A stretch of DNA of 64,000 nt from Lacrimispora indolis DSM 755 (GTDB lineage: Bacteria; Bacillota; Clostridia; Lachnospirales; Lachnospiraceae). The notes beneath the pieces are model-generated. The model was given only the letters and a program-made list of their open reading frames with translations, had not been told where the DNA came from and did no database searches. A program made the translations under genes and the position numbers. The stretch is from assembly GCF_000526995.1 (NCBI RefSeq), contig NZ_AZUI01000001.1, forward strand, positions 2,480,001-2,544,000. Reading direction: 5' to 3'. This document shows, in pieces, positions 4,907-53,735 of this stretch; the first letter of the stretch is position 1; each line of letters starts with the position of its first letter.

Positions 4907-4918
4907 AAAAGCAGTTGC

Positions 4919-5259: not shown

Positions 5260-5545
5260 GTAATTAATTAAAATGATCATATAATCATATCCAGTTTTTA
5301 TAAGTTATAGTAGTATAGACAAAGCGGGTATACTTTTAATATTTAAGGTATGCTGGTTTTGTATTACTTAAACTGCTGTAAGTTTTGGATAGGATTATAA
5401 TAATGTCAATTTAATTAGAATTTATATCGTGTTAATTTGCTATTTTTATTTTAAAATAGCTCTTTAATATTAAACTTCTATGATGAGACACTTATAACCT
5501 TTCCGAGACTTTTAGTTGGGAAAGGTTTTTTGTTTTTAAAATGAA
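5260..5545 (+). promoter_or_regulatory. Attenuator-like leader of vgb
   Basis: The leader holds a ribosome-site-like GAGG followed by an ATG near 5274 with a stop after a few codons. It also holds an imperfect GGTATAC/GTATGC pairing near 5330-5355. A strong intrinsic terminator lies directly before vgb: AACCTTTCC (5496-5504) with GGAAAGGTT (5519-5527), then a T-run. A terminator only about 30 bases before the start codon is the layout of transcription attenuation seen ahead of many ribosome-targeting antibiotic resistance genes. That it responds to antibiotic is inference. Confidence 0.6.
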
Positions 5546-5559
5546 AGGATAATAAGTAA

Positions 5560-6438: not shown

Positions 6439-6495
6439 CAAGTTTGCTTCATATCTTTATCTATCGTTTAATCAGGTTGGGAGGAGCGAATGGTT

Positions 6496-7137
6496 ATGAT
6501 TGGACCAGATAAGAATAAACTTTATCCAAATGAAAATATAAAGACGGTTTGCTATATAAGTAATCTGCCTAAAAAATTAAATATAGAGATTGGAGAATAT
6601 ACCTATTACAGCGATAATAAAAATTCTCCAGAGAAATTCTACAATAATATAGAACATCATTATGAGTTCATGGGAGATAAATTAATAATAGGTAAATTCT
6701 GCGCAATAGCAGAGGGCATTAAGTTTATTATGAATGGAGCAAATCACAGAATGGACGGAATTACAACTTATCCATTTAATATCTTTGGCGGTGGCTGGGA
6801 AAAGATCACTCCAACAGTAGATCAATTGCCTTTCAAGGGGGATACAGTGATAGGTAATGATGTTTGGATAGGGCAAAATGTAACTATTATGCCAGGTGTT
6901 AAAATTGGCGATGGTGCAATCATTGCCGCGAACTCTACTATAGTAAAAAATGTTGAACCCTATACAATACATGGCGGGAATCCAGCTAAGTTTATCAAGA
7001 AACGATTTAGTGATCAAAAGGTTGAATTTTTGCTAATGATTCAATGGTGGAACTGGGACGAAGAGAAAATATTTAATAATCTTGAAAAGCTAACATCAGA
7101 AATCGGTTTAGAACAGTTAATGGAACAATACCTTTAA
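6496..7137 (+). CDS. vat: Streptogramin A O-acetyltransferase (Vat family)
   Basis: The 213-residue protein belongs to the left-handed beta-helix xenobiotic acetyltransferases. NGANHRMDG contains the catalytic His84, and GDTVIGNDVWIGQNVTIMPG, KIGDGAIIAANS and GGNPAKFIKKRF are hallmark hexapeptide repeats. It would transfer acetyl from acetyl-CoA to the hydroxyl of streptogramin A. GGGAGGAG at 6479-6486 could serve ATG 6490 or ATG 6496; I prefer 6496 because family members begin M-x-GP. It lies 57 bases after vgb with no terminator between, so both are probably on one transcript controlled by the vgb leader. Confidence 0.88.
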   Translation: MIGPDKNKLYPNENIKTVCYISNLPKKLNIEIGEYTYYSDNKNSPEKFYNNIEHHYEFMGDKLIIGKFCAIAEGIKFIMNGANHRMDGITTYPFNIFGGGWEKITPTVDQLPFKGDTVIGNDVWIGQNVTIMPGVKIGDGAIIAANSTIVKNVEPYTIHGGNPAKFIKKRFSDQKVEFLLMIQWWNWDEEKIFNNLEKLTSEIGLEQLMEQYL

Positions 7138-7543
7138 GCTGTTGTCTTAAAGATAATTTGATGTTCTATGTAGAAATAGAATATGATATAAATCCATTTT
7201 TACTGAAAAAATTGCCGCCAATGAATGACTAGATTTTGTTAATATCCTTATTAACTCCGCAGGGCATGTAAATCCATAGTTCTGTTGCCCCCAAAAACGC
7301 CTGAAAAAATCAGAAAATAACGTGCAATAAATAAGGATATAAGAGTAGCTGAAAGAGGAAAACGTGGCTGAGACGTTGAGAGAAGGTCAAAGCTCTTAAA
7401 AATCACAAGACAGTCATCGGTGCTTTGTTATCAATAATTTTTCTCACAGGATTTAATATCCGGCTGAAAGAAAAGAATAGACAAGTACACAATATAGGGT
7501 GTACTATAAAACCATTACGATTACAAGCTCATAAGGAGGCATT
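7138..7543. other. Spacer without intact gene; short motif and operator candidate
   Basis: A copy of the short GGCATGTA...CTGTTGC motif lies at 7263-7288. From about 7380 one frame runs open as VKALKNHKTVIGALLSIIFL, a hydrophobic stretch with no start site, possibly a decayed membrane protein. An inverted repeat sits just before the next gene and is listed separately. Confidence 0.4.
7484..7505 (+). promoter_or_regulatory. Inverted-repeat operator candidate upstream of dihydropyrimidinase
   Basis: AGTACAC, eight bases, then GTGTACT: a perfect 7-base inverted repeat about 40 bases before the start codon. It fits a dimeric repressor or activator site. No regulator gene is adjacent. Confidence 0.45.
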
Positions 7544-8935
7544 ATGAATAAATTAATTAAAAATGGCATGATTGTTACAGATTCAGAAGTGTTTCAGGGG
7601 GATCTCCTTATAGAAGGTGAATGGATTAAGGCAGTCGGAAAAAATCTTCCTGCTGAGGAGGCCGAGGTGATTGATGCTACGGGAAAGTATGTGCTTCCCG
7701 GCGGCGTGGATGTTCATACCCATATGGATTTACAGTCCGGAAAGTATCGTGCGGTAGATGATTTTTATGATGGGACGGTTGCGGCGGCATGCGGAGGAAC
7801 GACGACGATTGTAGATCATATGGCATTTGGTCCGGTTGGCTGCAGTCTCTGGCATCAGGTAGAGGAATATCACAGACTGGCTGATGGCAAAGCGGTAGTT
7901 GATTATGGGTTTCACGGTGTGATTCAGCATGTGAATGAGTCTATCCTGAAGGAAATGGGTGAAATATCCCAAAAAGAGGGAATTACTAGCTTTAAGATCT
8001 ATACAACCTATAATTTTAAGTTGAATGATGATGAGATATACCAGGTTATGAAGCAGGCAAAAAAGGATGGGATTGTGATTGCCGTACATTGTGAGAATGA
8101 CGGCGTTTTAGGTTATCTCAGAAAGACCTATGTGGAAAAAGGATATACACAGCCCAAATATCACCCCTTAAGCCGTCCGGCCCGCTGCGAGGCAGAAGCA
8201 GTGGACAGACTGCTGCATATCGCAGCCATGGCAGGGGAGGCGCCGCTTTATATCGTGCACTTATCCAGCAAAGAAGGTATTCTTGAGGTCATGAAAGCGA
8301 AGGCCGCTCATCAGAAGAATTTTGCAGTGGAAACTTGCACTCAGTATTTGACTCTGACTGATGAGATGTACGAGGATGATATCGAAGGATTTAAAGCAAT
8401 CCTTTCCCCGCCGCTTCGTAAAAATGAAGATATTGAAGCCATGTGGCAGGCGCTGCAGGACAATGTGCTTGATACCATCGGAACAGATCACTGCCCATTT
8501 AATTTTACTACAAAAAAACAGGCTGGTGCCAATGATTTTACCGCTTGTCCCAACGGCGCCCCCGGCGTGGAAGAGCGGATGCGCGTTATTTTTTCAGAGG
8601 GGGTACAAAAGGGAAGAATTACACTTCCTCAGATGGTGAAATATTTATGCACCAATCCTTCCCGTATGTACGGCATGTATCCGCAGAAGGGGACACTTTT
8701 ACCAGGTTCTGATGCGGATGTAGTGATTTTAGATCCCAATAAGGAACGTACTCTGACTCATGGGGATATGCATGGTGCTGCCGACTACACCTGCTACGAA
8801 GGAATGAAGGTAAAAGGTGATATTGACCTTGTACTGCTGAGAGGATGTGTCATTGTCAAAGATAATGAATTCCTTGGAAAGAAAGGCAGCGGTAGATATT
8901 TGAAGCGACATAAGAGTGTATTAGCGGAGGCTTAA
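7544..8935 (+). CDS. hydA: Dihydropyrimidinase / hydantoinase
   Basis: The 463-residue cyclic amidohydrolase hydrolyses the ring amide of dihydropyrimidines or hydantoins to N-carbamoyl amino acids. The full metal site is visible: His58 and His60 (HTHMD), Lys151 to be carboxylated (TSFKIYTTY), His182 (AVHCEND), His239 (YIVHLSS) and Asp315 (GTDHCPF). Length is normal for the family. AAGGAGG lies a few bases before the ATG. No dihydropyrimidine dehydrogenase or carbamoyl-amino-acid hydrolase gene is nearby, so the pathway partner is elsewhere or the substrate is different. A terminator follows. Confidence 0.9.
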   Translation: MNKLIKNGMIVTDSEVFQGDLLIEGEWIKAVGKNLPAEEAEVIDATGKYVLPGGVDVHTHMDLQSGKYRAVDDFYDGTVAAACGGTTTIVDHMAFGPVGCSLWHQVEEYHRLADGKAVVDYGFHGVIQHVNESILKEMGEISQKEGITSFKIYTTYNFKLNDDEIYQVMKQAKKDGIVIAVHCENDGVLGYLRKTYVEKGYTQPKYHPLSRPARCEAEAVDRLLHIAAMAGEAPLYIVHLSSKEGILEVMKAKAAHQKNFAVETCTQYLTLTDEMYEDDIEGFKAILSPPLRKNEDIEAMWQALQDNVLDTIGTDHCPFNFTTKKQAGANDFTACPNGAPGVEERMRVIFSEGVQKGRITLPQMVKYLCTNPSRMYGMYPQKGTLLPGSDADVVILDPNKERTLTHGDMHGAADYTCYEGMKVKGDIDLVLLRGCVIVKDNEFLGKKGSGRYLKRHKSVLAEA

Positions 8936-11567: not shown

Positions 11568-12427
11568 TGATTTATCTTTATCCCTGCCATGTGAAAAACT
11601 TTTTTCACCATTTATACTGTCTGTTAAAATTGATAGATAGAAGGCCGGATTCGCATACAGCAGCTCTGATAGCTGGTTGGATGAGAAAAAACTTGAAGGC
11701 TGCGGTAATCTGCATCAGCACGACAAAGGGCTCGTATCGAATTGAAACTATGGGGCTTCGTTTTTATGATGAGTGGATAGTAATAAAATTACAATAAAAA
11801 AACACAAGCAGGAACAGAGATATTGGTTTTTGTTGGAAAACTGCTAAAATTAAAACCCTCAGTAATGGGGGTTTTATTGTTAACAGCTTTTATCTTTGTT
11901 AAATTAGACATCGAAAAATAAGGGATGTCATGTTATAATTGGTATAGCTGATTTATAAATAAGTAAGGTTGAGCGTCAGAATTATTGAATATGTACCTTG
12001 ACGCCAAGGGGGCACCAGATTCGGCAGTCATCAGAATTGCAGTAACATCACATGTGGAGTTTTGATGACAAGGTGTAGGAAAGGCTATTTTAAAGGCTTG
12101 ATACAGGACTTTTGTGTGATTAAGAGGTTGAAATCAGATGTTTGAAAAGCTTTATTTTTTGGCTGAACGGGAACATATCAAAACTAGCCGTAATGCTTGT
12201 GACAAAGTGATTTAGATGTCATAGTCGGGTGAGTGGTCAGGTCGGATGGTGACGGGAAACTATAACACATAAAGAGCTGGGTATGATTGAATATATCTGA
12301 TATATTTGATTTTGTTTCAGCGATAAAATGAGTTGGAAATATTGATCATTTTTTGATAAATAGATATTTAAGCACTCAGGAAAGGAAATTGCATCTGTGA
12401 AAAAATGAACAGATGCGGAAAATTATA
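11568..12427. other. Long spacer containing repeat copy B and decayed sequence
   Basis: The first 230 bases hold an ORF at 11567-11797 with no ribosome site. A second frame (about 11650-11745) reads plausibly as SSSDSWLDEKKLEGCGNLHQ and then stops, suggesting a decayed gene. Repeat copy B follows. An ATG at 12138 with GAGGTTGA upstream opens a 25-codon ORF (MFEKLYFLAEREHIK...) ending at 12215, which could be a truncated gene start. Confidence 0.4.
11810..12060 (+). repeat. Dispersed repeat, copy B
   Basis: This is the longest copy. It begins with CAGGAACAGAGATATTGG, shared with copy D, then an AAAACCC...GGGGTTTT hairpin. Next come AGCTTTTATCTTTG, shared with copy C, AAATTAGACATCGAAAAATAA, TGTTATAATT, GGTTGAGCGTCA, TTGACGCCAAGGGGG, a CATCAGAATTGCAGTAACA block and CACATGTGGA. 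Confidence 0.65.
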
Positions 12428-13417
12428 ATGAAAAAGTTAAATGATTATTTATATTCAGGCGATACCGTTCTTAAGATATTACAGAGATATACCGAGGATT
12501 TGAAACAGTCGTCGAAAGAAACTCATAATCAGATTGATCTTGTGCACTGTAATTTTCTACTTCAAATTGCGGAACTTTTACAGCACAACGAATTCCTGAC
12601 TTCACAGTCTCAGCGGATTCGGGACTTCTATAAATATATGGCAAATGAATATCCTTTTCTTGCATTTACTTTTAAGGGCCGAATTAAATCTCTGATACGC
12701 GCGGAAGCAAAATTTAACGGATATATTGTGGAATATATTTACGAGTATTATATGAAACACGGCAATTATCCTTCTCTTCCTGAACTGAAAGACTATTTAA
12801 ACTGTTTTCGGGACCTGATTGCATACAGAATTGTGATTTCCCTTCCCAAATGTCATCTGAAAGAAGGTGAAAATTGCGCGGATGAAGAAAAAAAATATCT
12901 ATATGATGTTGCCAACCAGTTGCTGGGTTTCATGGAGGAACGCGGATTTACTGCAGAAATAGCTTCTTTAAAGGGTCAGAAAAAATCGCCTTTGTTAAGA
13001 GAGAGCATAAGCCCATATTATAGAGATTATGTTGTAAATCCAGAGACTAATGGCTATCGTTCGCTGCATATAACATTTTATGATAACATAGCACGTTGTT
13101 ATGTGGAAGTACAACTTCGTACAAAAGAAATGGACGATTTCGCTGAAATTGGTCCTGCCAATCATTTAGGTTACGAAAAACGACAGGAAAGTGAAAGAGC
13201 CAAACGAGATGCAATTCCTAAAGGAGAAAATATTTATTTTGATGATGCTTATGAAAGAGGTATCATGCTGCAGCAGCTTGAATTATCAAAATTGGATGTA
13301 AATATGTTTTCAGCAGTGAATAATTCACTTATTAATGATGGCTGCGGCCTTTACCGAGGAAGACTTATTCTTCCGTACGAGCATCTTTCAAGATTCCAAA
13401 ATGACCTTGTGGATTAA
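12428..13417 (+). CDS. RelA/SpoT-domain protein (GTP pyrophosphokinase-like)
   Basis: The protein of about 329 residues has a single RelA/SpoT nucleotidyltransferase domain with no HD hydrolase, TGS or ACT domain. Family motifs are GRIKSLIRAEAK, FRDLIAYRIV, YRDYVVNPETNGYRSLH and YVEVQLRTKEMDDFAEIG. NGYRSLH and VQLRT are substrate-binding stretches of (p)ppGpp synthetases. It may make an alarmone under some stress, or be a toxic small alarmone synthetase; ADP- or tRNA-modifying relatives exist too. No good ribosome site is seen for ATG 12428 or ATG 12413. It is isolated, with a terminator downstream. Confidence 0.72.
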   Translation: MKKLNDYLYSGDTVLKILQRYTEDLKQSSKETHNQIDLVHCNFLLQIAELLQHNEFLTSQSQRIRDFYKYMANEYPFLAFTFKGRIKSLIRAEAKFNGYIVEYIYEYYMKHGNYPSLPELKDYLNCFRDLIAYRIVISLPKCHLKEGENCADEEKKYLYDVANQLLGFMEERGFTAEIASLKGQKKSPLLRESISPYYRDYVVNPETNGYRSLHITFYDNIARCYVEVQLRTKEMDDFAEIGPANHLGYEKRQESERAKRDAIPKGENIYFDDAYERGIMLQQLELSKLDVNMFSAVNNSLINDGCGLYRGRLILPYEHLSRFQNDLVD

Positions 13418-23752: not shown

Positions 23753-23770
23753 AAAGGGAGTGTACGGGTG

Positions 23771-24691
23771 ATGGCAAAACGAGAAGCAGGAGGGGGACAA
23801 TCAAAGTTAAAGCGCATCTGGCGGGACAGGGTTTTATATCTTACCTTACTGCCCACTTTACTATATTTTTTTGTATTCCATGTGATTCCGATCATTGGTA
23901 TGAAATTGGCCTTTTATGATTACCGAATCAAGGGTGACAATGTATTTGTAGGATTTACATATTTTAAAAAGTTATTTTCAACTCCGGTATTTTTACAGAT
24001 ACTGGAAAACACTTTGATTATCAGTGGGATGAAGATATTCCTGTTTTTCCCTATGCCTATTATTTTCGCTATTATGTTAAATGAATTTAAAGCAGGTCCT
24101 TTTCGAAAGAGTGTACAGGTGATTTCTTATCTGCCTCATTTCCTTTCCTGGGTTGTAATCGCGGGAATATGGTTTGAGTTTTTATCCCCATCTACCGGGA
24201 TTTTAAACAGCATTTTGACTGGTCTTGGTTTTGAAAAAGTAAATTTGTTAACAAGCAAAGGTTCAATCAGATGGGTTCTGCTGGCATCAGAATCCTGGAG
24301 ATCCATTGGGTGGGATTCCATTGTATATTTAACGGCAATTATGGGGATAGACCCCACTCTATATGAAGCTGCAAGAATAGATGGGGCCAACCGTTTTCAG
24401 ATTGTTGGAAGCATCGTACTGCCGGCTTTGGCTGTAACAATGGTCACGGTTTTAATTCTGAATATCGGTTTCTTTATGAATGCAGGTCTGGATCAGGTGC
24501 TGAACTTTACCAATGCTGCGGTCAATTCTAAGATCGATATCATAGACACCTATGTTTACCGGATCGGTCTGCAGAATTCCCAGTATTCCTTGGCAACAGC
24601 AGCGAACTTATTTAAAGGTGTAATAGGTACGCTCTTAATTGTTTCTACCCATCTGTTTTCCAAAAAGCTGACCGGTAAGGGGGCATGGTAG
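23771..24691 (+). CDS. ABC transporter permease (LplB/YtcP-type)
   Basis: The protein of about 306 residues has six membrane segments after a basic N-terminus. The EAARIDGANRFQIVGSIVLPAL stretch is the EAA loop that docks the ATPase. The type (LplB/CUT1) imports oligosaccharides or glycosides. A GTG at 23768 is an alternative start one codon upstream. It is cotranscribed with the next permease and lipoprotein; no ATPase gene is in the operon, so a shared MsmX-like ATPase is expected. Confidence 0.85.
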   Translation: MAKREAGGGQSKLKRIWRDRVLYLTLLPTLLYFFVFHVIPIIGMKLAFYDYRIKGDNVFVGFTYFKKLFSTPVFLQILENTLIISGMKIFLFFPMPIIFAIMLNEFKAGPFRKSVQVISYLPHFLSWVVIAGIWFEFLSPSTGILNSILTGLGFEKVNLLTSKGSIRWVLLASESWRSIGWDSIVYLTAIMGIDPTLYEAARIDGANRFQIVGSIVLPALAVTMVTVLILNIGFFMNAGLDQVLNFTNAAVNSKIDIIDTYVYRIGLQNSQYSLATAANLFKGVIGTLLIVSTHLFSKKLTGKGAW

Positions 24692-24701
24692 GAGGATAAG
24701 T

Positions 24702-25589
24702 ATGAAAAGAAGAAAGAAAATATCAATTGGCAAACTTCTGTGCGGCTTTATTATGATGCTTTTAGCTTTATGTATGTTAGTTCCATTATTGAATATACTG
24801 GCAAGATCTCTTTCACAACCGGATTTGGTTCATGGCCTGAAAGGATATGATATTCTGCCCAAGGGATTTTCTACGGTGAATTATCAGGTCATTCTAGGAC
24901 AGCCTATTGTAATCAGAAGCATACTGAACTCATTATTTATTACGGCTGCAGGTGTGTTTTTAAATATAACATTGACTTCCAGTGCGGCCTATGTATTAAC
25001 AAGGCCGGGACTGGTTGGCAAAAAGGTCTTTATGTATTTCTTTATTATTATGATGATATTTGAACCGGGAATTGTACAGGAATATTTTTTGATGAAGAAT
25101 ATTCATTTATTGGATAACCTGTTTTCCATGGTTATTTACAGAAGCGTAAACGTTTATTACCTGATCATATTAATGAGATTTATGGAAGAGGTGCCGGCTT
25201 CCATTCAAGATGCTGCAAGAATTGATGGAGCCGGGCATTATAACATCTTATTTAAGATCATGATTCCTTTATGCAGAATCCCATTGATCACGGTAGGAAT
25301 GTTTTATGCGGTGTTCCGCTGGAATGAATTTTTTAAATCAAGTATCTTTTTAACCAGCAAAAATCACACTGTTTTACAGGTGCTTTTAAGACAATTTGTA
25401 GTTAATTCAGATTCCCAGGTAATTGTGGGAGCATCCAATATTTTAGCTAATAATAATATTGCACAGCTGGATAACGCTTCCTTAAAAGCTGCAACCATTG
25501 TAGTGGCTGTTGTACCAATTTTATTACTATATCCAATTATTCTTAAATACTATACCAGCGGTGTTATGTCAGGAGGTGTAAAAGAGTAG
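24702..25589 (+). CDS. ABC transporter permease, second subunit
   Basis: The 295-residue membrane protein has six segments, with the EAA-type loop ASIQDAARIDGAGHYNILFKIMIPL around residue 165. It resembles YtcP/LplC-type CUT1 permeases. GGAGG precedes the ATG, ten bases after the first permease stops. The two permeases would form a heterodimeric channel for the solute delivered by the following lipoprotein. Confidence 0.85.
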   Translation: MKRRKKISIGKLLCGFIMMLLALCMLVPLLNILARSLSQPDLVHGLKGYDILPKGFSTVNYQVILGQPIVIRSILNSLFITAAGVFLNITLTSSAAYVLTRPGLVGKKVFMYFFIIMMIFEPGIVQEYFLMKNIHLLDNLFSMVIYRSVNVYYLIILMRFMEEVPASIQDAARIDGAGHYNILFKIMIPLCRIPLITVGMFYAVFRWNEFFKSSIFLTSKNHTVLQVLLRQFVVNSDSQVIVGASNILANNNIAQLDNASLKAATIVVAVVPILLLYPIILKYYTSGVMSGGVKE

Positions 25590-25654
25590 ATTACAGATAG
25601 TTTTGTGAGAAGGCACAGAAAAAAATTATATTAATTTTATGGAGGGAATGTAAA

Positions 25655-27130
25655 ATGAAAAAAACGATTTCATATTTATTCGTTGTGGGAATGGCAGTAC
25701 TGTCCCTGGCAGGCTGCGGAAAAAAGATTGATTCCAGTTCCAATGTACAGAGCACCCAGGATATTGCCAATGATTCGGCATCTGTAACAATTAAGGCAGT
25801 AATTAAGGATTTGTCAGCAGATGATGAAGTTTCCGTAAGATTTCTGGAGGCAGTAAGCAGCGGTGTTTCAAAAGAGCTTGGCCGGGAAGTACATATTGAA
25901 CTGGCTCCGATCTCTGATGGAACTTACTCTGAAAGTATGAGCCTGCTGCTTCAAAGCGGCGAGATTCCGGATCTGATGTATTTCCAGGGCGGTGATTATC
26001 AATTTGCCATTACCCAGGGAATTTTGGAAGACTTGACCCAATATGTCAATGATTCAACGAATATTAAAGCATTAATGCAGCCATATAACAAGGAAAGGTT
26101 AGCCAACTATCCATATCTTATATGGTTGTCACCGGATAGAATAAAGGTTCCGGTTGTGAGACAAGACTGGTTTGATGCGGCAAAATCAAGTAAAACACTT
26201 TTGGATGACCCAACTGCAGATAATTATAAAGCATTCTTTCAGGAATTAAAGGAGAACAACAATCTAAAAGCTGCATTTACCGTTCCTGGAGATATAACAG
26301 AGCTGGATACTGTATTTAATCTGGCCTTTGGGGTTAAGGCAACCTGGATAAAAGAAGGTGATAAATATGTTTACAGTAAAGTTACAAATGCAGAAAAAGA
26401 AAAATTGGCTTTTTATGCAGAGCTTTATAAAGAGGGCTTGTTGGATAATGAATGGTTAACAAAAAAATGGGATACAAAAGAAAGTGCCTTTTACAATGGC
26501 GAAGTTGGAGTTGTAAGCGGAACCCAGGGCAGTGTGATTAATATTTACAATAATAAGATGGTTACACAAAATGGTGAAAATGCGAAATTAGTTATTCTTC
26601 CCCCGGCAAAGGGTGCAGCACAAGGATATACTCCAGGAGATGTCAGCAAGGAATCCCGCGGTTGGGCAATCAGCAAATATTCTGAAAATAAGGATGTTGC
26701 TTTTGCAGTCTTAGAGTATATGGCTGGTCAGGAAGGTCAGCTTCTTGATAAATTGGGCTACGAAGGTGAAGAATACAATATAGAGAACAATGAAATTGTA
26801 TTAACCGATAAAATATCAGAATGGTGGCCTCGTTTCCATGAATCAATTGCAAATTTTGATGCGCCTATATCAGATAAGACTCCGTATTTCAGCGAAGCAG
26901 CCCTTAAATCTTTAGACATGGTCAATACCTATTCCTCTTTTGACAATGGATTTGTTATACCGGATGAATATGCAACAAACTGGGATGCAAGTCAGGCACT
27001 TTACATAGAATTTGCCGCGGATGTAATAAGCGGTAACCGTTCCATTGATGAATTTGATCAATTTGTTGCAGATTGGAATGCATTAGGCGGAGCGGAAATT
27101 ACGGAATACGCGAACACAATATTGAAATAA
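25655..27130 (+). CDS. Extracellular solute-binding lipoprotein
   Basis: The 491-residue protein has a lipoprotein signal: a basic start, a hydrophobic core and an LAGC lipobox with Cys21. It is then a type 1 (LplA-like) binding protein with DLMYFQGGDYQFAITQGILEDLTQYV and SRGWAISKYSENKD motifs. It captures the sugar or glycoside imported by the two permeases. GGAGGG lies before the ATG. The ligand is unknown, but downstream ADP-ribosylglycohydrolase-fold enzymes hint at an N- or O-glycoside of ribose or a similar sugar. Confidence 0.85.
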   Translation: MKKTISYLFVVGMAVLSLAGCGKKIDSSSNVQSTQDIANDSASVTIKAVIKDLSADDEVSVRFLEAVSSGVSKELGREVHIELAPISDGTYSESMSLLLQSGEIPDLMYFQGGDYQFAITQGILEDLTQYVNDSTNIKALMQPYNKERLANYPYLIWLSPDRIKVPVVRQDWFDAAKSSKTLLDDPTADNYKAFFQELKENNNLKAAFTVPGDITELDTVFNLAFGVKATWIKEGDKYVYSKVTNAEKEKLAFYAELYKEGLLDNEWLTKKWDTKESAFYNGEVGVVSGTQGSVINIYNNKMVTQNGENAKLVILPPAKGAAQGYTPGDVSKESRGWAISKYSENKDVAFAVLEYMAGQEGQLLDKLGYEGEEYNIENNEIVLTDKISEWWPRFHESIANFDAPISDKTPYFSEAALKSLDMVNTYSSFDNGFVIPDEYATNWDASQALYIEFAADVISGNRSIDEFDQFVADWNALGGAEITEYANTILK

Positions 27131-27150
27131 CCAGGGGAAGAAAGGAACGT

Positions 27151-28140
27151 ATGATGTTAACAAGAGAATATCTGATTCAAAATAAAGAAGCTGCGCTGGA
27201 TAAAGCAATCGGTTCACTCTGTGGCTTAGCGATCGGTGACTCCTTCGGTGATGCCGCAAGAAGCCCGGAAAACCAGAGAGATTACGGAATCACTACGGAC
27301 TTTAATAAAGGCTCTTCCTGGAGTACGGATGATACGGAATTTGCCCTTTTGACGGCAGAAACCATAATTGAGGCCGGTGGTGATTTTACTTCAGAAGATG
27401 TAGTAACGATGTGGTTAAGACATGTGGCAACAGAAGATGAGCTGAAACGCGGCGGTGTCAGCGAAGTGGAAGCATGCAATAATCTGCGGAGAGGCATGCG
27501 TCCGCCGGAATCAGGAAGATTCAATGCTTACTATTTAAGCGATGGAGCTGCTATGAGAAGCGGCCCAATCGGTATCCTATGTGCAGGTGATCCGGAAAGA
27601 GCGGCCAGACTGGCGGAAATTGATGCCAGCGTAAGCCATCATATGGATGGCGTCTGGGGAGCACAGGCCGTTGCCGTTGCAGTATCCCTGGCAATGGTGG
27701 ATGCTTCCATGGACGAAATATTAGACTCTGTTTTAAAAACAGCACCAAAAGGGTCCTGGTTCAGAGAAACATTATTACGAGCCTTTCAAATAGTAGATGA
27801 TGCAAACGGTGATATTGCAGATGCCTGGATGCCATTGCATTATGAATTATTCTCCACACACCGTTCTACGGTGGCCGAAGCGCTGCCGGAAGTATTTGGG
27901 TGCCTGAAATTAGAACATGGCAGTTTTAAGTCAGGCTTGATTCTCGCCGGCAATTTCGGGCGGGATGCAGATACCATTGGAGCTGTAGCCGGGGCTGTTC
28001 TTGGAGCAAAATACGGGGCAAAAGGCATACCGGAGAAGTGGCTGCAAAAAACCAGATATCCATCCGGAACCTGTTTGGGCTTTACAAAAGGAATTGACAT
28101 CTTTGACCGGGCAGCCAGATTGGCAGCCTTAATTAAATAA
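27151..28140 (+). CDS. ADP-ribosylglycohydrolase family protein
   Basis: The 329-residue protein has the DraG/ARH fold. SLCGLAIGDSFGDAARS is the N-terminal motif, SSWSTDDTEFALL carries the first Thr-Asp-Asp metal site (about residues 58-60), and GRDADTIGAVAGAVLGAKYG carries the Asp-x-Asp-Thr second site. The dinuclear magnesium centre therefore looks intact. Family members remove ADP-ribose from protein, or hydrolyse other glycosides. In a sugar-import operon a small-molecule glycoside is more likely than protein deADP-ribosylation; this is inference. The start is supported by AAGGA just upstream. Confidence 0.82.
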   Translation: MMLTREYLIQNKEAALDKAIGSLCGLAIGDSFGDAARSPENQRDYGITTDFNKGSSWSTDDTEFALLTAETIIEAGGDFTSEDVVTMWLRHVATEDELKRGGVSEVEACNNLRRGMRPPESGRFNAYYLSDGAAMRSGPIGILCAGDPERAARLAEIDASVSHHMDGVWGAQAVAVAVSLAMVDASMDEILDSVLKTAPKGSWFRETLLRAFQIVDDANGDIADAWMPLHYELFSTHRSTVAEALPEVFGCLKLEHGSFKSGLILAGNFGRDADTIGAVAGAVLGAKYGAKGIPEKWLQKTRYPSGTCLGFTKGIDIFDRAARLAALIK

Positions 28141-28202
28141 TATCCTATGGCCTGTCTGTCTGGTTGACGGACAGGTCATAGTTATCAAAGGAGAATGAGA
28201 AT

Positions 28203-30305
28203 ATGATACCTGATAAATATTTGGAAAAGGTATATTCCGGATTTTTGGGGATGAATATTGGTATTCGTTTAGGGGCTCCTGTAGAGCCAACCATATGGAC
28301 TTATGAGCGTATTTTAAATACATACGGTGAAATTACGGATTATGTAAAAGACTATAAAAATTTTGCCGCAGATGATGATGTGAATGGGCCGGTTTATTTT
28401 CTCCGGGCTTTATATGATGATGCAAAAGACGGTGATTTGAAACCCCAGGATGTTGCCAGGGCATGGCTGAATTATGCCCGTGAGGGTGTTGGCATGTTCT
28501 GGTGGGGCGGCTATGGCATCAGCACGGAGCATACGGCTTACTTAAATTTAAAGCATGGCATTCCTGCACCCCAATCCGGGTCCGTGAATCAAAATGGCCA
28601 ATTGCTTGCAGAACAGATCGGAGGCCAGATATTCATTGATACCTGGGGACTGGTGAATCCGTGCCGGCCGGACAAAGCAGCTGAGTTCGGGCAGAGTGCC
28701 GCCAGTGTGTCCCATGACGGAGAAGGAATATATGGCGCCCGTTTTTTCTGCGCATGCATTGCCCATGCGTTCCAATGCCAGGATATCCATGAAATTATCC
28801 AAGTCGGGCTGTCGCAGATCCCTGAACATAGCTTATATACAAAGGTTGTAAATGCAGTACTTGATTTTCACAAAGAAAATAATAATTGGCGTGATTGTTA
28901 TAACATGCTGGTACGTGATTGGGGGTATGATAAATACGGCGGTGTCTGCCATATAATACCTAACGCAGGAGTATGTGCCTTATCCATGGTATATGGGAAT
29001 GGAGACTTTGCAAAGACAGTTGAAATTGCCACCATGTGCGGCTGGGATACAGACTGTAATGCAGGCAATGCAGGAACCGTGCTGGGTGTTATGTGCGGGA
29101 TCGAAGGACTGCCGGAAAGGTATCGCAAGCCAATCAATGATGGCATTATTTTATCCGGAGTTTCCGGCTATTTGAATAATCTGGATGTACCTACTTACGC
29201 AAAGGAAGTTGCTCTGCTGGGGTACAGACTGGCCGGGGAAAAAGCCCCTGCCTCCCTTCTTAACAGTATAAAAGAAGGAGAAGTGCATTTTGATTTTGAA
29301 CTTCCGGGATCCACTCATAATATGAGGTTATCAGATTCATTTTATTGCACTGCAGGCCATTCCACTGATATAGCATACAAAGGAAACGGCTCCCTGAAAA
29401 TATTAATTGATCGTATGACACGGGGAAATCAGTGTAAGCTTTACTATAAACCTTTTTACCGCCGGGATGAATTTTCTGATGAGCGTTATATGCCGGTTTT
29501 TACACCTACGGCATATCCGGGCCAGACAGTATCCATGAAGCTTTATCTGGATCAATGGAACGGCTGGGAAACACTTGGGATAGCGCCTTATGTCCGTTCC
29601 ATGAGCGATAAGAAGGAGCATTTACAGGGATATGTTAAATCAGTACAGGGGGAATGGATTGACTTGACCTTTGTGATACCGGAGGCAGACGGGGATTTAA
29701 TTGATGAAGTCGGTATTGTAATTGAAGGTTATTCCATTGCAAAGGCCAAAACCCTGGGATTCTTATACTTAGATGAATTTTCTATTACAGGTAAAAGCAG
29801 GTACACTGTTAAAATCGCAAAGCAGCGAAATGAATTTGGTACAATTACCCCATTTTCTATGAATCATGGAGCCTGGGCAAAAGACGGAGAAGCGCTGTCT
29901 CTGATGAGGTGTGAACCATCTTTTGCTTATGCCGGTAATTATTTTTCAAAGGATGTAAGGCTGACGGTGCCGGTTACTCCGGTCAATGGGGAAAGCCACC
30001 TGTTACAAATCCGTGCTCAAGGTGTAATGCGTGGATATATTGCCGGATTTTCAGAAGAGGGAAAAGCTGCAATTTATAAAAATGATTTTGGTTTTAAGAA
30101 ACTGGTGGAAACTGATTTTGACTGGAAGCAAGGGACTGCTTATAAACTCACTCTGGAAGCAGCAGGTGATTGGATTGCCTTGTCCATAGATGATGAGAAG
30201 ATATTAGAAATAAAAGATGACAGCTTCCGGTACGGCATGTTTGGCTGTGGGTCCATTGGTATGGGGAGAACCTTATTCGGTGATTTTGAAATTATAGAGA
30301 TTTAG
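28203..30305 (+). CDS. ADP-ribosylglycohydrolase-fold protein with C-terminal beta-rich domain
   Basis: The 700-residue protein has an ARH domain over roughly residues 1-350 and an unrelated C-terminal part (about 360-700). That part is rich in beta strands, for example WNGWETLGIAPYV and GYIAGFSEEGKAAIYKND, like a carbohydrate-binding or laminin-G-type module. The metal motifs differ from the first ARH protein: ADDDVNGPVYFL instead of TDDT, and GWDTDCNAGNAGTVLG with Cys in place of Thr. No signal peptide is seen. AAAGGAGAA precedes the ATG. It probably cleaves or binds the glycoside imported by this operon. Confidence 0.78.
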   Translation: MIPDKYLEKVYSGFLGMNIGIRLGAPVEPTIWTYERILNTYGEITDYVKDYKNFAADDDVNGPVYFLRALYDDAKDGDLKPQDVARAWLNYAREGVGMFWWGGYGISTEHTAYLNLKHGIPAPQSGSVNQNGQLLAEQIGGQIFIDTWGLVNPCRPDKAAEFGQSAASVSHDGEGIYGARFFCACIAHAFQCQDIHEIIQVGLSQIPEHSLYTKVVNAVLDFHKENNNWRDCYNMLVRDWGYDKYGGVCHIIPNAGVCALSMVYGNGDFAKTVEIATMCGWDTDCNAGNAGTVLGVMCGIEGLPERYRKPINDGIILSGVSGYLNNLDVPTYAKEVALLGYRLAGEKAPASLLNSIKEGEVHFDFELPGSTHNMRLSDSFYCTAGHSTDIAYKGNGSLKILIDRMTRGNQCKLYYKPFYRRDEFSDERYMPVFTPTAYPGQTVSMKLYLDQWNGWETLGIAPYVRSMSDKKEHLQGYVKSVQGEWIDLTFVIPEADGDLIDEVGIVIEGYSIAKAKTLGFLYLDEFSITGKSRYTVKIAKQRNEFGTITPFSMNHGAWAKDGEALSLMRCEPSFAYAGNYFSKDVRLTVPVTPVNGESHLLQIRAQGVMRGYIAGFSEEGKAAIYKNDFGFKKLVETDFDWKQGTAYKLTLEAAGDWIALSIDDEKILEIKDDSFRYGMFGCGSIGMGRTLFGDFEIIEI

Positions 30306-48139: not shown

Positions 48140-48173
48140 AAGAACAGCAGAATAAAAAGTGAGAGTGATTTCT

Positions 48174-48896
48174 TTGAATAAATATTATGATATATACTTG
48201 GACTTAGTAAAGGATATAAAAGAAAAGAAATATTTGCCGGGAGATTTTTTACCTGTTGAGATGAAGTTGGTTGAAAAATATCATGTTTCCAGAGAAACGG
48301 TGAGAAAGGCTCAGGCACTTTTGATGGAAAATGGCCTTATTCAGAAAAAGCAGGGCCGCGGGGCTATCGTTCTTGATATTAATAAACTTAAATTCGCCGG
48401 CTCTGGTCTGGTCAGTTTTAATGAAATGCAAAAAAAGCAGCATTTAAAAAGTGAAACAGCCATTTTGAAAAATAAAAGAGAAAGAATTTCAGGAGAATTA
48501 GCTAAGAAGCTTGATTTAAGTAAAAGAACGGAAGTGCTTTCTCTTGAGAGACTGAGAAAAATAAATGGAGAAGCAATTATCTTAGATAAGGATTACTTAA
48601 TAGCTGAAATTATTCCTGAGATTCCATCATCAGCGGCACAGCTTTCTATCTACAATTATATTGAACATGATCTGGGTCTGAATATTGGGTATGCCAACAA
48701 AGAAATTACCATTGAACCTGTGACAGAGGAAGATAAAATACTGCTGGATATTCATAATGACACGCATGTGGCGGTTATTAGAAGTGAAGTTTATTTAGAA
48801 GATACGAGATTTTTTCAATACCATGAAGCAAGGCAGCGTGTGGATACATTTCGGTTTGTTGATTTCGCAAGAAGAAAAAATTTAATAGATTTTTAA
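48174..48896 (+). CDS. treR: Trehalose operon repressor (GntR/UTRA)
   Basis: The protein of about 240 residues has a GntR winged helix (YLPGDFLPVEMKLVEKYHVSRETVRKAQALL) and a UTRA effector domain ending QYHEARQRVDTFRFVDFARRK, the TreR-like finish. It should repress the treP and sulfatase-treC transcripts until trehalose 6-phosphate binds. Neither start has a strong ribosome site. I choose TTG 48174 because it gives MNKYYDIYLDLV, matching family N-termini; GTG 48159 adds five residues. It is convergent with treP. Confidence 0.85.
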   Translation: MNKYYDIYLDLVKDIKEKKYLPGDFLPVEMKLVEKYHVSRETVRKAQALLMENGLIQKKQGRGAIVLDINKLKFAGSGLVSFNEMQKKQHLKSETAILKNKRERISGELAKKLDLSKRTEVLSLERLRKINGEAIILDKDYLIAEIIPEIPSSAAQLSIYNYIEHDLGLNIGYANKEITIEPVTEEDKILLDIHNDTHVAVIRSEVYLEDTRFFQYHEARQRVDTFRFVDFARRKNLIDF

Positions 48897-48897
48897 A

Positions 48898-48945
48898 TGA
48901 AATGAGGCTATGAAAAAACAATTAATTTTTCATAGCCTCATTTCA
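48898..48945. terminator. Bidirectional terminator between treR and treP
   Basis: A perfect 20-base inverted repeat (48898-48917 with 48926-48945) has an 8-base loop. The outer part pairs GAAATGAGGCTATG with CATAGCCTCATTTC and the inner part A-run with T-run. It serves both convergent genes. Confidence 0.85.
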
Positions 48946-48961
48946 TATGTTAAGTATAAAA

Positions 48962-50380
48962 TTATTCCTCTTGTAATTGCTTTTCAAAAATTTTCATTTT
49001 AGAAAATACAAGAGTAAGAACAACCGTGATCGCAATGGAAGTTCCCATTGCCAGGAAATATACGCCCCAATATTCCGTAAAGACAGAAAGGAAGGCAGGT
49101 AATCCGGAAATTCCAATTGATCCGGCTTTAACACCTGCAAATGAAACAATTCCTCCTGCAACTCCGGCACCAATCATTGAAGCAATAAATGGGAAACGGT
49201 AACGTAAATTCACCCCGAAAATAGCAGGTTCTGTAATTCCCAACCATGCAGAAATAGCGGCTGATACTGCAACGCCTTTCATTTTTTTGTTTTTACAGAT
49301 GAAGAATATTGCCAAAGCTGCGGCACCCTGTCCGAGACTTGCCATTACCTGGATTGGCCAAAGTGTTGCATAACCAAGAGCCCCAATCATTTGTAAATTA
49401 ACTCCTAAGAATAAATGATGCATTCCGGTAACAACAAGGGGAGATACGATAGCTCCGAATATTACTCCGGCTATTACAGGAGAAATATCAAATAAACCGA
49501 CAACTCCGTTTGTGATTAAGTTTGCAAACCACATTGTTACAGGTCCAATAATTGTAAAAGTAAAGAATCCGGTGATTAACAGTGTCAAAGGAGCAACAAA
49601 AATCAGCTGGACCATATCCGGTATTCTCTTGGATAAAAACTGCTCAGTTTTTGCTAAAAGGAAAGATGAGAATAAAATAGGTATAACCTGCCCTTGATAT
49701 CCGATTTTCGCAATGTTCAGCCCTAAGATATTCCAATACTGAACCTCCTCAGGTGTCCTTGCATATTGTGCACCTGGCATCAATGCGGGATTTATTAAGA
49801 TAAGTCCAAGTACAATACCTAAAACCGGATTTCCGCCAAACTTTTTAACTGCTGACCAGCCAACTAATGCAGGTAAAAATGAAAATGATGTGCTGGCGAT
49901 GACGTTTATCATATTAGAAATGCCGGCCCAGCCAGGATGAACTTCTAAAACGGGCTGTTCATAAAAGATTCCCGGATTGGCAAGAAGATTGTTCAATCCC
50001 ATCAATATGCCGGCGGCAACAATGGCTGGTAAAATCGGGATGAAGATATCAGCAAGGACCTTTACACCTCTTTGAACAGGATGTAACTTTTTATTGCTTT
50101 CCTGTTTTACTTCTTCCTTACTGGCTTCCTTTAACCCTGTTTCCTTGATAAGCGCAGCATATGCTTTGTTAACCAATCCCGGCCCGACAATGACTTGAAA
50201 TTGTCCATTGGCTGAAAAGCTGCCTTTTACAATTTCTATTTTTTCCAATTCTTTTGTATCAACCGCTTTTTCATCTTTTAAAATAAATCTTAACCGGGTG
50301 ACACAATGCGTTGCGGATGTTATATTGGGAAGTCCGCCGACAGCATTTATAATTTGTTTGACCTGCTCGTTTAAATCCAT
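48962..50380 (-). CDS. treP: PTS trehalose-specific enzyme IIBC
   Basis: The 472-residue protein has an N-terminal IIB domain with phosphorylated Cys26 (ATHCVTRLRF) and a ten-segment IIC channel with a GITEPAIFG motif. It takes up trehalose, or a close analogue, as the 6-phosphate. No IIA domain is present, so a shared glucose-type IIA is needed. The reverse-strand leader has GGAGGAGG before the ATG. Its transcript diverges from the sulfatase-treC operon under shared operators. Confidence 0.9.
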   Translation of the reverse strand: MDLNEQVKQIINAVGGLPNITSATHCVTRLRFILKDEKAVDTKELEKIEIVKGSFSANGQFQVIVGPGLVNKAYAALIKETGLKEASKEEVKQESNKKLHPVQRGVKVLADIFIPILPAIVAAGILMGLNNLLANPGIFYEQPVLEVHPGWAGISNMINVIASTSFSFLPALVGWSAVKKFGGNPVLGIVLGLILINPALMPGAQYARTPEEVQYWNILGLNIAKIGYQGQVIPILFSSFLLAKTEQFLSKRIPDMVQLIFVAPLTLLITGFFTFTIIGPVTMWFANLITNGVVGLFDISPVIAGVIFGAIVSPLVVTGMHHLFLGVNLQMIGALGYATLWPIQVMASLGQGAAALAIFFICKNKKMKGVAVSAAISAWLGITEPAIFGVNLRYRFPFIASMIGAGVAGGIVSFAGVKAGSIGISGLPAFLSVFTEYWGVYFLAMGTSIAITVVLTLVFSKMKIFEKQLQEE

Positions 50381-50414: not shown

Positions 50415-50432
50415 AAATTTGACTAGACAAAT
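50415..50432 (-). promoter_or_regulatory. TreR operator at treP promoter
   Basis: AAATTTGACTAGACAAAT is the exact reverse complement of 50580-50597. On the minus strand it lies just downstream of TTGACA (50471-50466), 17 bases, TTAAAT (50448-50443), where a repressor would block treP transcription. Confidence 0.8.
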
Positions 50433-50539
50433 TATAAATATAATTTAACATGATTGAATCATGCATGTCAAGGTATACTTTAAAAAAACATGTATTTATC
50501 TGTACTTTATTTGATTGTTTTCTTCTTCTCATAAAAGTA

Positions 50540-50597
50540 TTGCATTTTTTATGAATAGTGAATATAATTACTATGTAACATTTGTCTAGTCAAATTT
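50540..50597 (+). promoter_or_regulatory. Promoter and TreR operator of sulfatase-treC operon
   Basis: TTGCAT (50540-50545), 17 bases, TATAAT (50563-50568), with the operator ATTTGTCTAGTCAAATTT at 50580-50597 near the start point. The operator is the exact reverse complement of the treP operator. Confidence 0.8.
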
Positions 50598-50667
50598 CGA
50601 GCAAATGCCTTTGAGAATAAAAATGTTTCAGTTTCAGCAAAGAAAAAAGATAGTGGAGGAGATTACA

Positions 50668-52047
50668 ATGAGACCAAATATTCTGTTGATGATTTCTCAT
50701 GACAGCGGAAGGAAATTTAGCAGCTACGGATATAAAGTAGATACTCCTGCGATTCAGCAGATGTCAGAAGAGGGGATTCAATTTAATCAATACTTCTGCA
50801 CAGCGCCGCAGTGCAGTCCCAGCAGAGCCAGCATTTTAACAGGTCTGTATCCCCATAATAACGGAATGATGGGGCTGGCTCACTTAGGTTTCTGCATTGA
50901 CGGAAGTCATACAACCTTGCCTAAAGAATTGCAGAAGAACGGATATGAAACCACATTGATTGGATTAAGCCATGAAACGATCAACGTTGCTCCGCCCATT
51001 GAAGAGCGGGTTTTCTCTTCAACCTATGACTTAGGGTATGACAACTTTATTCCTGTTCCAGGTGACAGAGCTCCGAGAGTTGCAGAAGAAGTGATTACGT
51101 TCTTAGAAAGGCATAAGGGAAATCAAGAACAGCCATTTTACCTAAATGTCGGTTTTTTTGAAACTCACAGGAGCTTTGACGAGTATGCACCATATGCAGA
51201 CAAACGGGAAGAAGTTAAGGTGTTTGACTTTCTGCCGGATACGCCTAATGTAAGAGAAGATATTACACTATTTAACGGTTCTGCTAAGGTCTTAGATGCT
51301 GCCATTGGAAAGATCAATCATACATTGTCAGAAACAGGATTAGATAAAAACACCATTGTTATTCTTACAACAGATCATGGAGTGGATTTTCCGGGAGCAA
51401 AAGGAACTTTAAAGAATGCAGGATTGGAAACCGCATTAATCGTTGTTTTGCCTGACGGCAAACAAAAGAACGCTCAAAAAGAGGCATTGCTGTGTAACGT
51501 TGATCTGCTGCCAACGGTTCTGGACTTGATCGGAGCAGAAATTCCTGATAATCTCGATGGAAAAAGCTTTGCTCATTTGTTGAAATCAAATGAGGATACC
51601 GGAAGAGAATCGTTCTTTTCAGAACTGACCTGGCATGATCGGTACCACCCAATGAGAGGATTAAGAACCAGGGAATTCAGTTATGTGAAAAACTTCGCAG
51701 ATGGTCCGAAAGTGTACTTGCCCATAGATTCCCATTTAAGCTTATCCGGCGTTGATACCAGAGATAAATATTATGTTCCAAATGAAGAAGAAGAATTGTA
51801 CGATTTACAAAAAGATCCTTTAGAGGAAAACAACGTGATCAATCATCCGGATTATCAGCATATTGCCTCTGAATTCAGAAAGAAAGTAGAGAACTGGATG
51901 GTTCAGACAAAGGATCCCCTTTTAAAAGGCCCGGTCATTGGTACCGGATCAAAAAGATGGGAGAAAGAGATAGAAGAGGGCAGGGCATACCCCGGAAAAA
52001 AGAAGTATTATGAACTGCATCCGGAAGGGGGAGGAGTTCAATCATGA
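50668..52047 (+). CDS. Sulfatase, heparan N-sulfatase-like
   Basis: The 459-residue type I sulfatase has Cys49 in CSPSRASILTG, the C-x-P-S-R motif converted to formylglycine. LLMISHDSGR provides N-terminal metal ligands (His-Asp rather than the usual Asp-Asp) and TTDHGVDFPGAKGT a later pair. Overall order resembles N-sulfoglucosamine sulfohydrolase. There is no signal peptide, so it acts in the cytoplasm. GGAGGAG six bases upstream fixes ATG 50668 over ATG 50605. It lies behind a TreR operator and overlaps treC by four bases, so it likely removes sulfate from a sulfated trehalose-like phosphate. Confidence 0.87.
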   Translation: MRPNILLMISHDSGRKFSSYGYKVDTPAIQQMSEEGIQFNQYFCTAPQCSPSRASILTGLYPHNNGMMGLAHLGFCIDGSHTTLPKELQKNGYETTLIGLSHETINVAPPIEERVFSSTYDLGYDNFIPVPGDRAPRVAEEVITFLERHKGNQEQPFYLNVGFFETHRSFDEYAPYADKREEVKVFDFLPDTPNVREDITLFNGSAKVLDAAIGKINHTLSETGLDKNTIVILTTDHGVDFPGAKGTLKNAGLETALIVVLPDGKQKNAQKEALLCNVDLLPTVLDLIGAEIPDNLDGKSFAHLLKSNEDTGRESFFSELTWHDRYHPMRGLRTREFSYVKNFADGPKVYLPIDSHLSLSGVDTRDKYYVPNEEEELYDLQKDPLEENNVINHPDYQHIASEFRKKVENWMVQTKDPLLKGPVIGTGSKRWEKEIEEGRAYPGKKKYYELHPEGGGVQS

Positions 52048-53735
52048 TAGATTTCAAAAAAAGCGTTGTGTATCAAATCTATCCAAAATCATTTAAGGAT
52101 TCAAACGGGGATGGATTTGGAGATTTAAAGGGTGTAACCGAAAAATTAGATTATTTGCAGGAACTGGGTGTGGATTACATTTGGCTCACCCCATTCTATG
52201 TGTCACCGCAAAATGATAACGGCTATGATGTTGCGGATTATGGGAATATAGATCCTGCTTTCGGGACAATGGATGATTTTGAAGAAATGGTAGCTGCCGC
52301 CAGGGAAAGAAATATGGATATTATGCTTGATATGGTATTTAATCATACATCTTCTGAACATGCGTGGTTTAAAAAAGCAATTGTAGGAGAGAAGAAATAC
52401 CGGGACTACTATATTTTTAAAAAGAGTGAAGGCGGTAAAGTACCAACCAACTGGAAATCTAAATTCGGCGGGTCTGTTTGGGAGCCTGTTGAAGGAACCG
52501 ATGAATATTACCTTCATCTGTTTGACAAAACTCAGCCAGACTTAAACTGGGAGAATCAAGAAGTAAGGAAAGAAATTTTTGATGTTGTAAACTTCTGGAT
52601 TAATAAAGGCATCAAAGGATTCCGCCTGGATGTCATTAACCTGATTTCCAAGCCTGATGATTGGAAGGACGATCATATGGGAGATGGAAGGCGTTTTTAC
52701 ACGGACGGTCCAAGGATTCATGAATTTTTAAAGGAATTGAACAGAGAAACATTTGGAAAATATGATGATATTATTACAGTGGGAGAAATGTCATCAACAA
52801 CCATAGACCATTGTATCCGCTACTCCAATCCAGAGGAACAAGAATTATCAATGGTGTTTAATTTCCACCATTTAAAAATCGATTATAAGGATGGAGAAAA
52901 ATGGTCGTTAAAGGATTTTGATTTTGAAGAGCTGAAAAACATCTTCGATTTATGGCAAAATGGAATGACAGAAGGCAATGGCTGGAATGCAGTGTTTTGG
53001 TGCAATCACGATCAGCCCCGTATTGTTTCGCGAATCGGGAATGACAGGGAATACCACAAGCAATCTGCAAAAATGCTTGCCACAGCCATTCATATGCTCA
53101 GAGGAACCCCTTATATTTATCAGGGCGAGGAGATTGGAATGACAAACCCTTACTTTGATTCCGTTGAACAGTATAAAGATGTGGAAAGCTTAAATTATTA
53201 TGATATTTTATGTGCTCAGGGAGTACCAAAAGAAGAAGTGTTAAGGATCTTAAGCGTAAAATCCAGAGATAACTCTCGTACACCCATGCAATGGAAGGAT
53301 AAGGAACATGGCGGTTTTACAACAGGAACTCCATGGCTGTCCGTGGGAGAAAGCTATCGGTCAGTCAACGCGGAAAATGCTCTCCGTGATAAGGATTCTG
53401 TGTTTTACCACTATAAGAAGCTTATTAAGCTTCGTAAACAGCATGACATTATTGCTTATGGAAACTATGAAACGTTATCCATTGAGCATCCAAAAGTATA
53501 TGCATACATGCGGAGCCTTGAGGAGCAGAGATTGATCGTTTTAAATAACTTTTACGGAGAAAATACCCAATTCCTGTTACCGGAAGAAATAAATATCAAT
53601 GGCTGTGAATCGAAAGTTTTAATATCCAACTATGAAGATTCTCCTGAAATGACCCGTTCTATTTCCTTGCGTCCCTATGAATCAATCTGTTATCTGCTTG
53701 ATCGTTTCCATTCCAATGGACTTGCGGGAATTTGA
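52044..53735 (+). CDS. treC: Alpha,alpha-phosphotrehalase
   Basis: The 563-residue GH13 enzyme has the four family regions DMVFNHTS, GFRLDVINLI with the nucleophile aspartate, TVGEMSS with the acid glutamate and FWCNHDQPRIVSR. It would split trehalose 6-phosphate to glucose and glucose 6-phosphate; oligo-1,6-glucosidase is the main alternative, but the trehalose context decides. ATGA overlaps the sulfatase stop, implying translational coupling. The terminator downstream also serves the convergent cupin gene. Confidence 0.9.
   Translation: MIDFKKSVVYQIYPKSFKDSNGDGFGDLKGVTEKLDYLQELGVDYIWLTPFYVSPQNDNGYDVADYGNIDPAFGTMDDFEEMVAAARERNMDIMLDMVFNHTSSEHAWFKKAIVGEKKYRDYYIFKKSEGGKVPTNWKSKFGGSVWEPVEGTDEYYLHLFDKTQPDLNWENQEVRKEIFDVVNFWINKGIKGFRLDVINLISKPDDWKDDHMGDGRRFYTDGPRIHEFLKELNRETFGKYDDIITVGEMSSTTIDHCIRYSNPEEQELSMVFNFHHLKIDYKDGEKWSLKDFDFEELKNIFDLWQNGMTEGNGWNAVFWCNHDQPRIVSRIGNDREYHKQSAKMLATAIHMLRGTPYIYQGEEIGMTNPYFDSVEQYKDVESLNYYDILCAQGVPKEEVLRILSVKSRDNSRTPMQWKDKEHGGFTTGTPWLSVGESYRSVNAENALRDKDSVFYHYKKLIKLRKQHDIIAYGNYETLSIEHPKVYAYMRSLEEQRLIVLNNFYGENTQFLLPEEININGCESKVLISNYEDSPEMTRSISLRPYESICYLLDRFHSNGLAGI

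Follow-up and report, generated by a model that had tools for sequence, protein, structure and literature searches.

A sulfatase-headed second trehalose operon in Lacrimispora indolis and its probable use of sulfated trehalose

The 64,000-nucleotide stretch of Lacrimispora indolis DSM 755 analysed here (hereafter the window; contig NZ_AZUI01000001.1, positions 2,480,001 to 2,544,000) contains a trehalose locus in which a type I sulfatase gene heads the transcript of the phosphotrehalase gene treC2, divergently from treP2, which encodes a phosphotransferase system (PTS) permease. The available data are compatible with a model in which this second tre operon serves specifically for sulfated trehalose, 2-O-sulfotrehalose being the likeliest form, a reading that gene content and a predicted fold make probable (roughly 0.6). 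An earlier sequence-only reading of the stretch had proposed PTS import, desulfation and then phosphotrehalase action as a coherent route. This route gains support from the linkage of the sulfatase family to several unrelated trehalose-type enzymes, from the separate operator of this second tre operon, from maturase genes in 24 of the 31 family loci and from a predicted fold nearest to C2-position sulfohydrolases, and placing the sulfate at C2 would refine the original idea.

Several haloalkaliphilic archaea are described as having 2-sulfotrehalose as a major solute, and mycobacterial sulfatides as having it for their core (available part of PMC1224877), in agreement with the earlier remark that sulfated trehaloses occur in mycobacterial sulfolipids and haloarchaea. 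No description of 2-sulfotrehalose breakdown was found among the literature matches listed, which covered titles and the starts of abstracts, with subscription journals mostly outside coverage. If the reading is true, the gene set would mark organisms able to consume or recycle this compound, and the sulfatase would be a tool enzyme for detecting or removing the sulfate. It would also present a case of one sulfatase family paired with several unrelated trehalose enzymes.

In the proposed pathway, TreP2 would import 2-sulfotrehalose and phosphorylate it at position 6. An anaerobic sulfatase maturase (anSME) encoded elsewhere in the genome would install the formylglycine of the sulfatase, which would take off the C2 sulfate in the cytoplasm. 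Cleavage of trehalose 6-phosphate by TreC2 would then yield glucose and glucose 6-phosphate. TreR2 would repress both divergent promoters through its own operator and leave both operator copies on induction. In related loci that carry genes of glycoside hydrolase family 65 (GH65), the sugar would instead enter unphosphorylated, lose its sulfate and then undergo phosphorolysis, and beta-phosphoglucomutase would pass the product on to glycolysis.

A second tre operon and its separate operator

The same 6.38-Mb genome holds a separate housekeeping treR-treP-treC set (C1:3196355-3200245) with a different operator-like palindrome, ACATATACGTATATGT, which makes the sulfatase-linked locus a second, dedicated tre operon and rules out a single ordinary one. 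TreC2 scores 892.8 bits on TIGR02403 (cut-off 799.05) and is 60% identical to the housekeeping TreC, while TreR2 scores 283.6 bits on TIGR02404 (cut-off 211.95) and is 44.5% identical to the genome's other TreR, 68% to the TreR of locus L120 from a second genus of the same class, and 52% to that of Enterobacter locus L001. TreP2 falls between the trehalose and sucrose EIIBC models, below both cut-offs. It reaches 562.9 bits on the trehalose model TIGR01992 (cut-off 591.95; 687 bits for the housekeeping TreP) and 417.2 on PRK11007 (cut-off 409), and is therefore filed as TreP-like. It is 36% identical to the housekeeping TreP, as against 61% to an Enterobacter TreP that is likewise linked to a sulfatase, and in the tree it groups with four other sulfatase-linked TreP proteins (99/99; five used), a placement that carries a long-branch warning. 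The case for a specialised TreP family from bit score or identity alone was considered and found weak, because four Bacilli genomes have a housekeeping TreP that is 52-55% identical to TreP2. Within the genus, a housekeeping-type TreC is present in 16 of 25 genomes and the sulfatase in two, the window's and G318 (91% identity).

The sequence-only reading had taken the treP and sulfatase operators to be identical as reverse complements, and the 287-bp intergenic stretch between these divergent genes indeed contains an exact 18-bp inverted pair. This pair is the longest inverted match in the stretch, compared with a maximum of 11 bp in 200 first-order Markov simulations, and a model of the window's composition predicts about 0.0002 copies of the 18-mer genome-wide. 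Its 14-bp core occurs exactly at these two sites only, with one further genomic site at one mismatch. Both operators are kept in the second species of the genus (G318, locus L111), which repeats the whole layout, and related sites are present in L120 and L001. The promoter geometry of the intergenic stretch is only suggestive, with five matches in a promoter scan against 2.7 (standard deviation 1.4) in shuffles. Downstream, the sulfatase gene precedes treC2 and overlaps it by four nucleotides (ATGA), as had been read before.

A leaderless sulfatase with a C2-type predicted fold

The sulfatase scores 142.3 bits on the Pfam Sulfatase model (cut-off 25) and has an intact CSPSR motif, which bears out its earlier assignment as a type I sulfatase with C-x-P-S-R. 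Its open reading frame is listed from 50605; the likely true start is the ATG at 50668, preceded by GGAGG. On reading its N-terminus and those of 30 out of 120 database homologues, no leader was seen, which suggests a cytoplasmic location.

In the predicted-fold comparison, sulfamidase is closest, leading by 4 Z units, followed by S1_8C and S1_8A, which tie with S1_25 (38.7). The 50 entries listed in that comparison include no S1_8B chain, though Foldseek does list such chains. S1_8 enzymes are described as 2-O-sulfatases acting at C2 (available part of PMC12549532), so that a fold nearest to C2-position sulfohydrolases would fit 2-sulfotrehalose. Candidates for the maturation step are two anSME encoded elsewhere in the genome (TIGR03942, 392.2 and 387.9 bits; cut-off 349.45). 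Separately, another sulfatase of the same genome (L130, C1:6141000-6157000) lies beside a PTS EIIBC (31% identical to TreP2) and an EIIA, so that the genome may have another PTS locus for a sulfated sugar.

Linkage to trehalose-type genes across the family

Thirty-one family loci (the window, L001-L020, L111-L115, L120 and L159-L162), whose sulfatases are about 49-92% identical to the window's, were compared with 20 control regions, 11 of them around the genome's 14 other sulfatases and nine around relatives of 33-36% identity. Genes of the tre-PTS type are present in nine family loci (the window, L111, L120, L159-L162, L001 and L003), hosted by the window's genome, G318, five genomes of the second genus, Aquibacillus sediminis and an Enterobacter, and in none of the controls, where no TreC, TreP or TreR match above 31% identity was found. 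GH65 phosphorylase-like genes occur in 14 family loci and one control (L140). The conservation of sulfatase-treC pairs, which the sequence-only reading had suggested as a check, extends to six of the 31 loci, in which treC adjoins the sulfatase gene.

The gene run in the second genus is treC-sulfatase-anSME-TauE-EIIA (L120, L159-L162), with treC missing in L161 and EIIA not seen in L160, and the locus is found in 5 of 71 genomes of that genus's family. One anSME scanned from this group scores 342 against the cut-off of 349. In L120 (G1387, 11928-13366) treP lies in two frames; tblastn finds it as a single stretch in the four congeners. The Enterobacter locus L001 is arranged as treP / sulfatase-treR, with TTGTCTGGACAA twice in between and treC elsewhere in the genome. 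In this strain, Enterobacter sp. kpr-6 (L001/L163), treP and the sulfatase are 61-66% identical to their window counterparts, and treR 52%. The sulfatase occurs in 1 of 198 Enterobacteriaceae genomes, and the cassette was probably transferred across phyla.

The 14 GH65 loci, all from Bacilli, carry a sugar-binding ATP-binding cassette (ABC) system, with FGE in all 14 and a LacI regulator seen in seven; ten of them also have beta-phosphoglucomutase and a second GH65 type (GH65b). Several sources name GH65b an alpha,alpha-trehalose phosphorylase, most rows giving bare GH65 and one kojibiose phosphorylase. Among the solved chains compared, those nearest to GH65 are kojibiose (366 bits) and maltose (355 bits) phosphorylase, and GH65b is a putative trehalose phosphorylase. 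GH65a, beside the Bacilli sulfatases, is closest to kojibiose phosphorylase, and a further protein search with it returned mostly bare GH65 names.

Across the family, FGE is present in 19 loci (with two separate matches in L004) and anSME in five, which together make up the 24 loci with maturase genes. TauE-family genes occur in L112 and the five second-genus loci, but controls L123, L126 and L138 likewise have them close to other sulfatases, so that they speak for general sulfur-anion release and not for this substrate. In the sulfatase tree the GH65 loci fall in one branch and the tre-PTS linkage in two places (window/L120/L001 and L003), and the linkage counts are therefore not independent events. 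Among sampled genomes, the sulfatase is present in 2 of 391 from the window's class, 5 of 398 from the class of G328 and 6 of 397 from the order of G328, the last two sets sharing genomes. A homologue of 74% identity comes from Clostridium, E. coli genomes gave no DNA match, and phage records gave three matches of 30-37%, in unannotated faecal scaffolds.

Distant kin in haloarchaea and Tsukamurella

A plasmid search returned 18 records with sulfatase kin at 35-41% identity, of which 15 are haloarchaeal. The kin in Natrialba magadii, Halopiger xanaduensis and Natronosalvus rutilus (38-40%) is followed by a nucleoside diphosphate (NDP)-sugar synthase, with a TreT-like synthase 2-8 kb away. The haloarchaeal TreT-like proteins score 374.4 and 358.9 on NF041139, below the cut-off of 775 of this Thermococcales model, and among solved chains the N. 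magadii protein matches TreT best (323 bits). The available part of PMC3403918 reports 2-sulfotrehalose in N. magadii, detected by nuclear magnetic resonance. A Natrinema locus places a GH15 protein with a trehalase-type N-terminal domain 4 kb from the sulfatase kin; this GH15 had no match in the solved-structure search. In Natrinema sp. SYSU A 869 (L168:9986-11322) the sulfatase homologue lies in two pieces with no annotated gene.

On a Tsukamurella tyrosinosolvens plasmid (L169:8974-15732), sulfatase kin (38%), FGE, cysC, cysD and an Stf0 sulfotransferase form one cluster. The sole solved match of this Stf0 is 1TEX, a trehalose sulfotransferase, and Stf0 is described as making trehalose 2-sulfate (available part of PMC10638397). 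This cluster may encode both the sulfation of trehalose and its reversal. The sulfatase tree places the haloarchaeal rows, apart from L171, as the sister group of the Bacillota/Enterobacter family (97/97), with the actinobacterial pair outside (90/76); L171 falls with the distant branch.

A broader proposal, held at slightly less than even odds, would unite these proteins in a bacterial and archaeal family of dedicated trehalose-2-sulfate sulfatases (HDxG, CSPSR, DHGxxxPxxK), in which Bacillota and an Enterobacter would consume 2-sulfotrehalose via PTS-TreC or via ABC import and GH65 phosphorolysis, two unrelated pathways, and Natrialbaceae and Tsukamurella would use kin of the enzyme to recycle their own trehalose sulfate. 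On this proposal the family would supply the degradative half that is missing from the 2-sulfotrehalose cycle.

Alternative explanations

Several observations weigh against a dedicated 2-sulfotrehalose route. The first Asp of the DD metal motif is replaced by His in 37 of 38 family rows, and the Lys of GKxH by Q, S, F or H in all 38; because these motifs differ from sulfamidase, the enzyme is filed as S1_8-like and not as an S1_8 member, and an N-sulfoglucosamine-type activity may be conceivable, sulfamidase being the closest fold. No maturase gene lies beside the sulfatase in the window or in L111, treC lies outside the cluster in L001, L003 and L161, and L003 (Aquibacillus) yielded no operator of this type. 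Eight family loci (L002, L004, L005, L007, L009, L019, L020 and L112) lack tre or GH65 genes in the stretch examined and have only a PTS of another type, ABC or GPH transporters, so that substrates may differ between branches. Among 13 haloarchaeal loci examined, nine (two of them unannotated) have no recognised trehalose gene nearby, and GH65 and TreT were assigned by name and by scores below the cut-offs. Finally, the control match at L140 (G291, 4049-7703) places a distant-branch sulfatase of 33% identity beside a GH65 that is 49% identical to GH65b, and the trehalose-type linkage may thus reach deeper than the counted family.

The same logic would apply, with another ester position or an amine, if the operon served another sulfated trehalose or trehalose-like alpha-glucoside, such as a 6-sulfate, a disulfate, N-sulfo-trehalosamine or sulfated kojibiose. 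This is unlikely, though sulfamidase as the single closest fold, the closeness of GH65a to kojibiose phosphorylase and the other transporters of several family branches lend it some weight; S1_8 members are described as acting at C2 (PMC12549532), C2-sulfated trehalose is reported in haloalkaliphilic archaea and mycobacterial sulfatides (PMC1224877), and the family links to N. magadii and Stf0 all pull towards 2-sulfotrehalose. With that substrate retained, the order of steps could be reversed, such that TreC2 (or GH65) would cleave sulfotrehalose 6-phosphate (or sulfotrehalose) and the sulfatase would then act on glucose 2-sulfate or its 6-phosphate. The close structure S1_8A is described as a monosaccharide-specific 2-sulfatase, and the sulfatase gene follows treC in L120, L159, L160 and L162. 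However, TreC2 scores as an ordinary phosphotrehalase for which a 2-sulfated ring would not be an expected substrate, and in lambda-carrageenan breakdown the alpha-galactosidase GH110A is described as requiring prior 2-O-desulfation (both descriptions in the available part of PMC12549532), which leaves reversal distinctly improbable.

That the enzyme is no sulfatase at all, and instead cleaves a phospho-trehalose derivative as a formylglycine phosphodiesterase or phosphonate monoester hydrolase, is very improbable given that its best structures are sulfamidase and S1_8 sulfatases, that Stf0 and cysCD are neighbours in Tsukamurella and that TauE-family genes lie in L120, L159-L162 and L112. That an unrelated sulfatase entered a tre operon by chance would fit its presence in only 2 of 25 genomes of the genus, but is hardly credible. 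Sulfatase and tre genes are found together again, in varying order, in another genus of the class, in Aquibacillus and in Enterobacter, and in none of the 20 controls, and this tre operon is the genome's second and has a separate operator. Desulfation of imported 2-sulfotrehalose ahead of TreC2 is the preferred reading.

Layout of the locus

The coordinates of the features are collected in Table 1. Elsewhere in the window, two open reading frames that by eye look like ADP-ribosylglycohydrolase types (27073-30305) lie directly behind an apparent sugar ABC transporter (23768-27130).

Table 1. Features of the sulfatase-linked tre locus, in window positions
Feature	Position	Strand	Description
treR2	48159..48896	+	GntR/UTRA repressor of this operon; exact start codon uncertain (48159-48177)
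Inverted repeat	48897..48946		About 20 bp per arm, between convergent treR2 and treP2; read by eye, likely bidirectional terminator
treP2	48962..50380	-	PTS EIIBC, trehalose/sucrose branch; proposed importer of the sulfated disaccharide
Operator, treP2 side	50415..50432		AAATTTGACTAGACAAAT
Operator, sulfatase side	50580..50597		Exact reverse complement of AAATTTGACTAGACAAAT; just downstream of TATAAT
Sulfatase gene	50668..52047	+	Type I sulfatase without leader, CSPSR; heads the sulfatase-treC transcript; trehalose 2-sulfate is the proposed substrate
treC2	52044..53735	+	alpha,alpha-Phosphotrehalase (GH13)

Comparison with known systems

PTS tre operons of the Bacillus subtilis type (treP-treC-treR) combine an IIBC permease, a phosphotrehalase and a GntR/UTRA repressor with palindromic operators. 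The locus described here differs in that a sulfatase heads the treC transcript, the operator is another one, TreP2 lies outside the housekeeping clade and a normal tre operon is also present in the genome. The GH65-type sulfatase loci share their gene content with a KojP-ABC-bPGM-TreP region of Thermoanaerobacter kivui, whose description in the available part of PMC9834392 mentions no sulfatase.

Sulfamidase (N-sulfoglucosamine sulfohydrolase, SGSH, S1_8) is set apart from the window enzyme, which is leaderless and linked to trehalose genes, and whose family has HDxG for DDxG, DHG for DNG and no GKxH lysine. The lambda-carrageenan 2-O-sulfatases S1_8A/B/C, of which S1_8C and S1_8A are the next closest folds, are described as 2-O-sulfohydrolases (available part of PMC12549532) but, unlike the window enzyme, serve periplasmic galactan breakdown in Pseudoalteromonas. 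The trehalose sulfotransferase Stf0, finally, has a homologue near a family sulfatase in Tsukamurella and is not among the genes of the window locus; its chemistry is the reverse of that proposed for the sulfatase.

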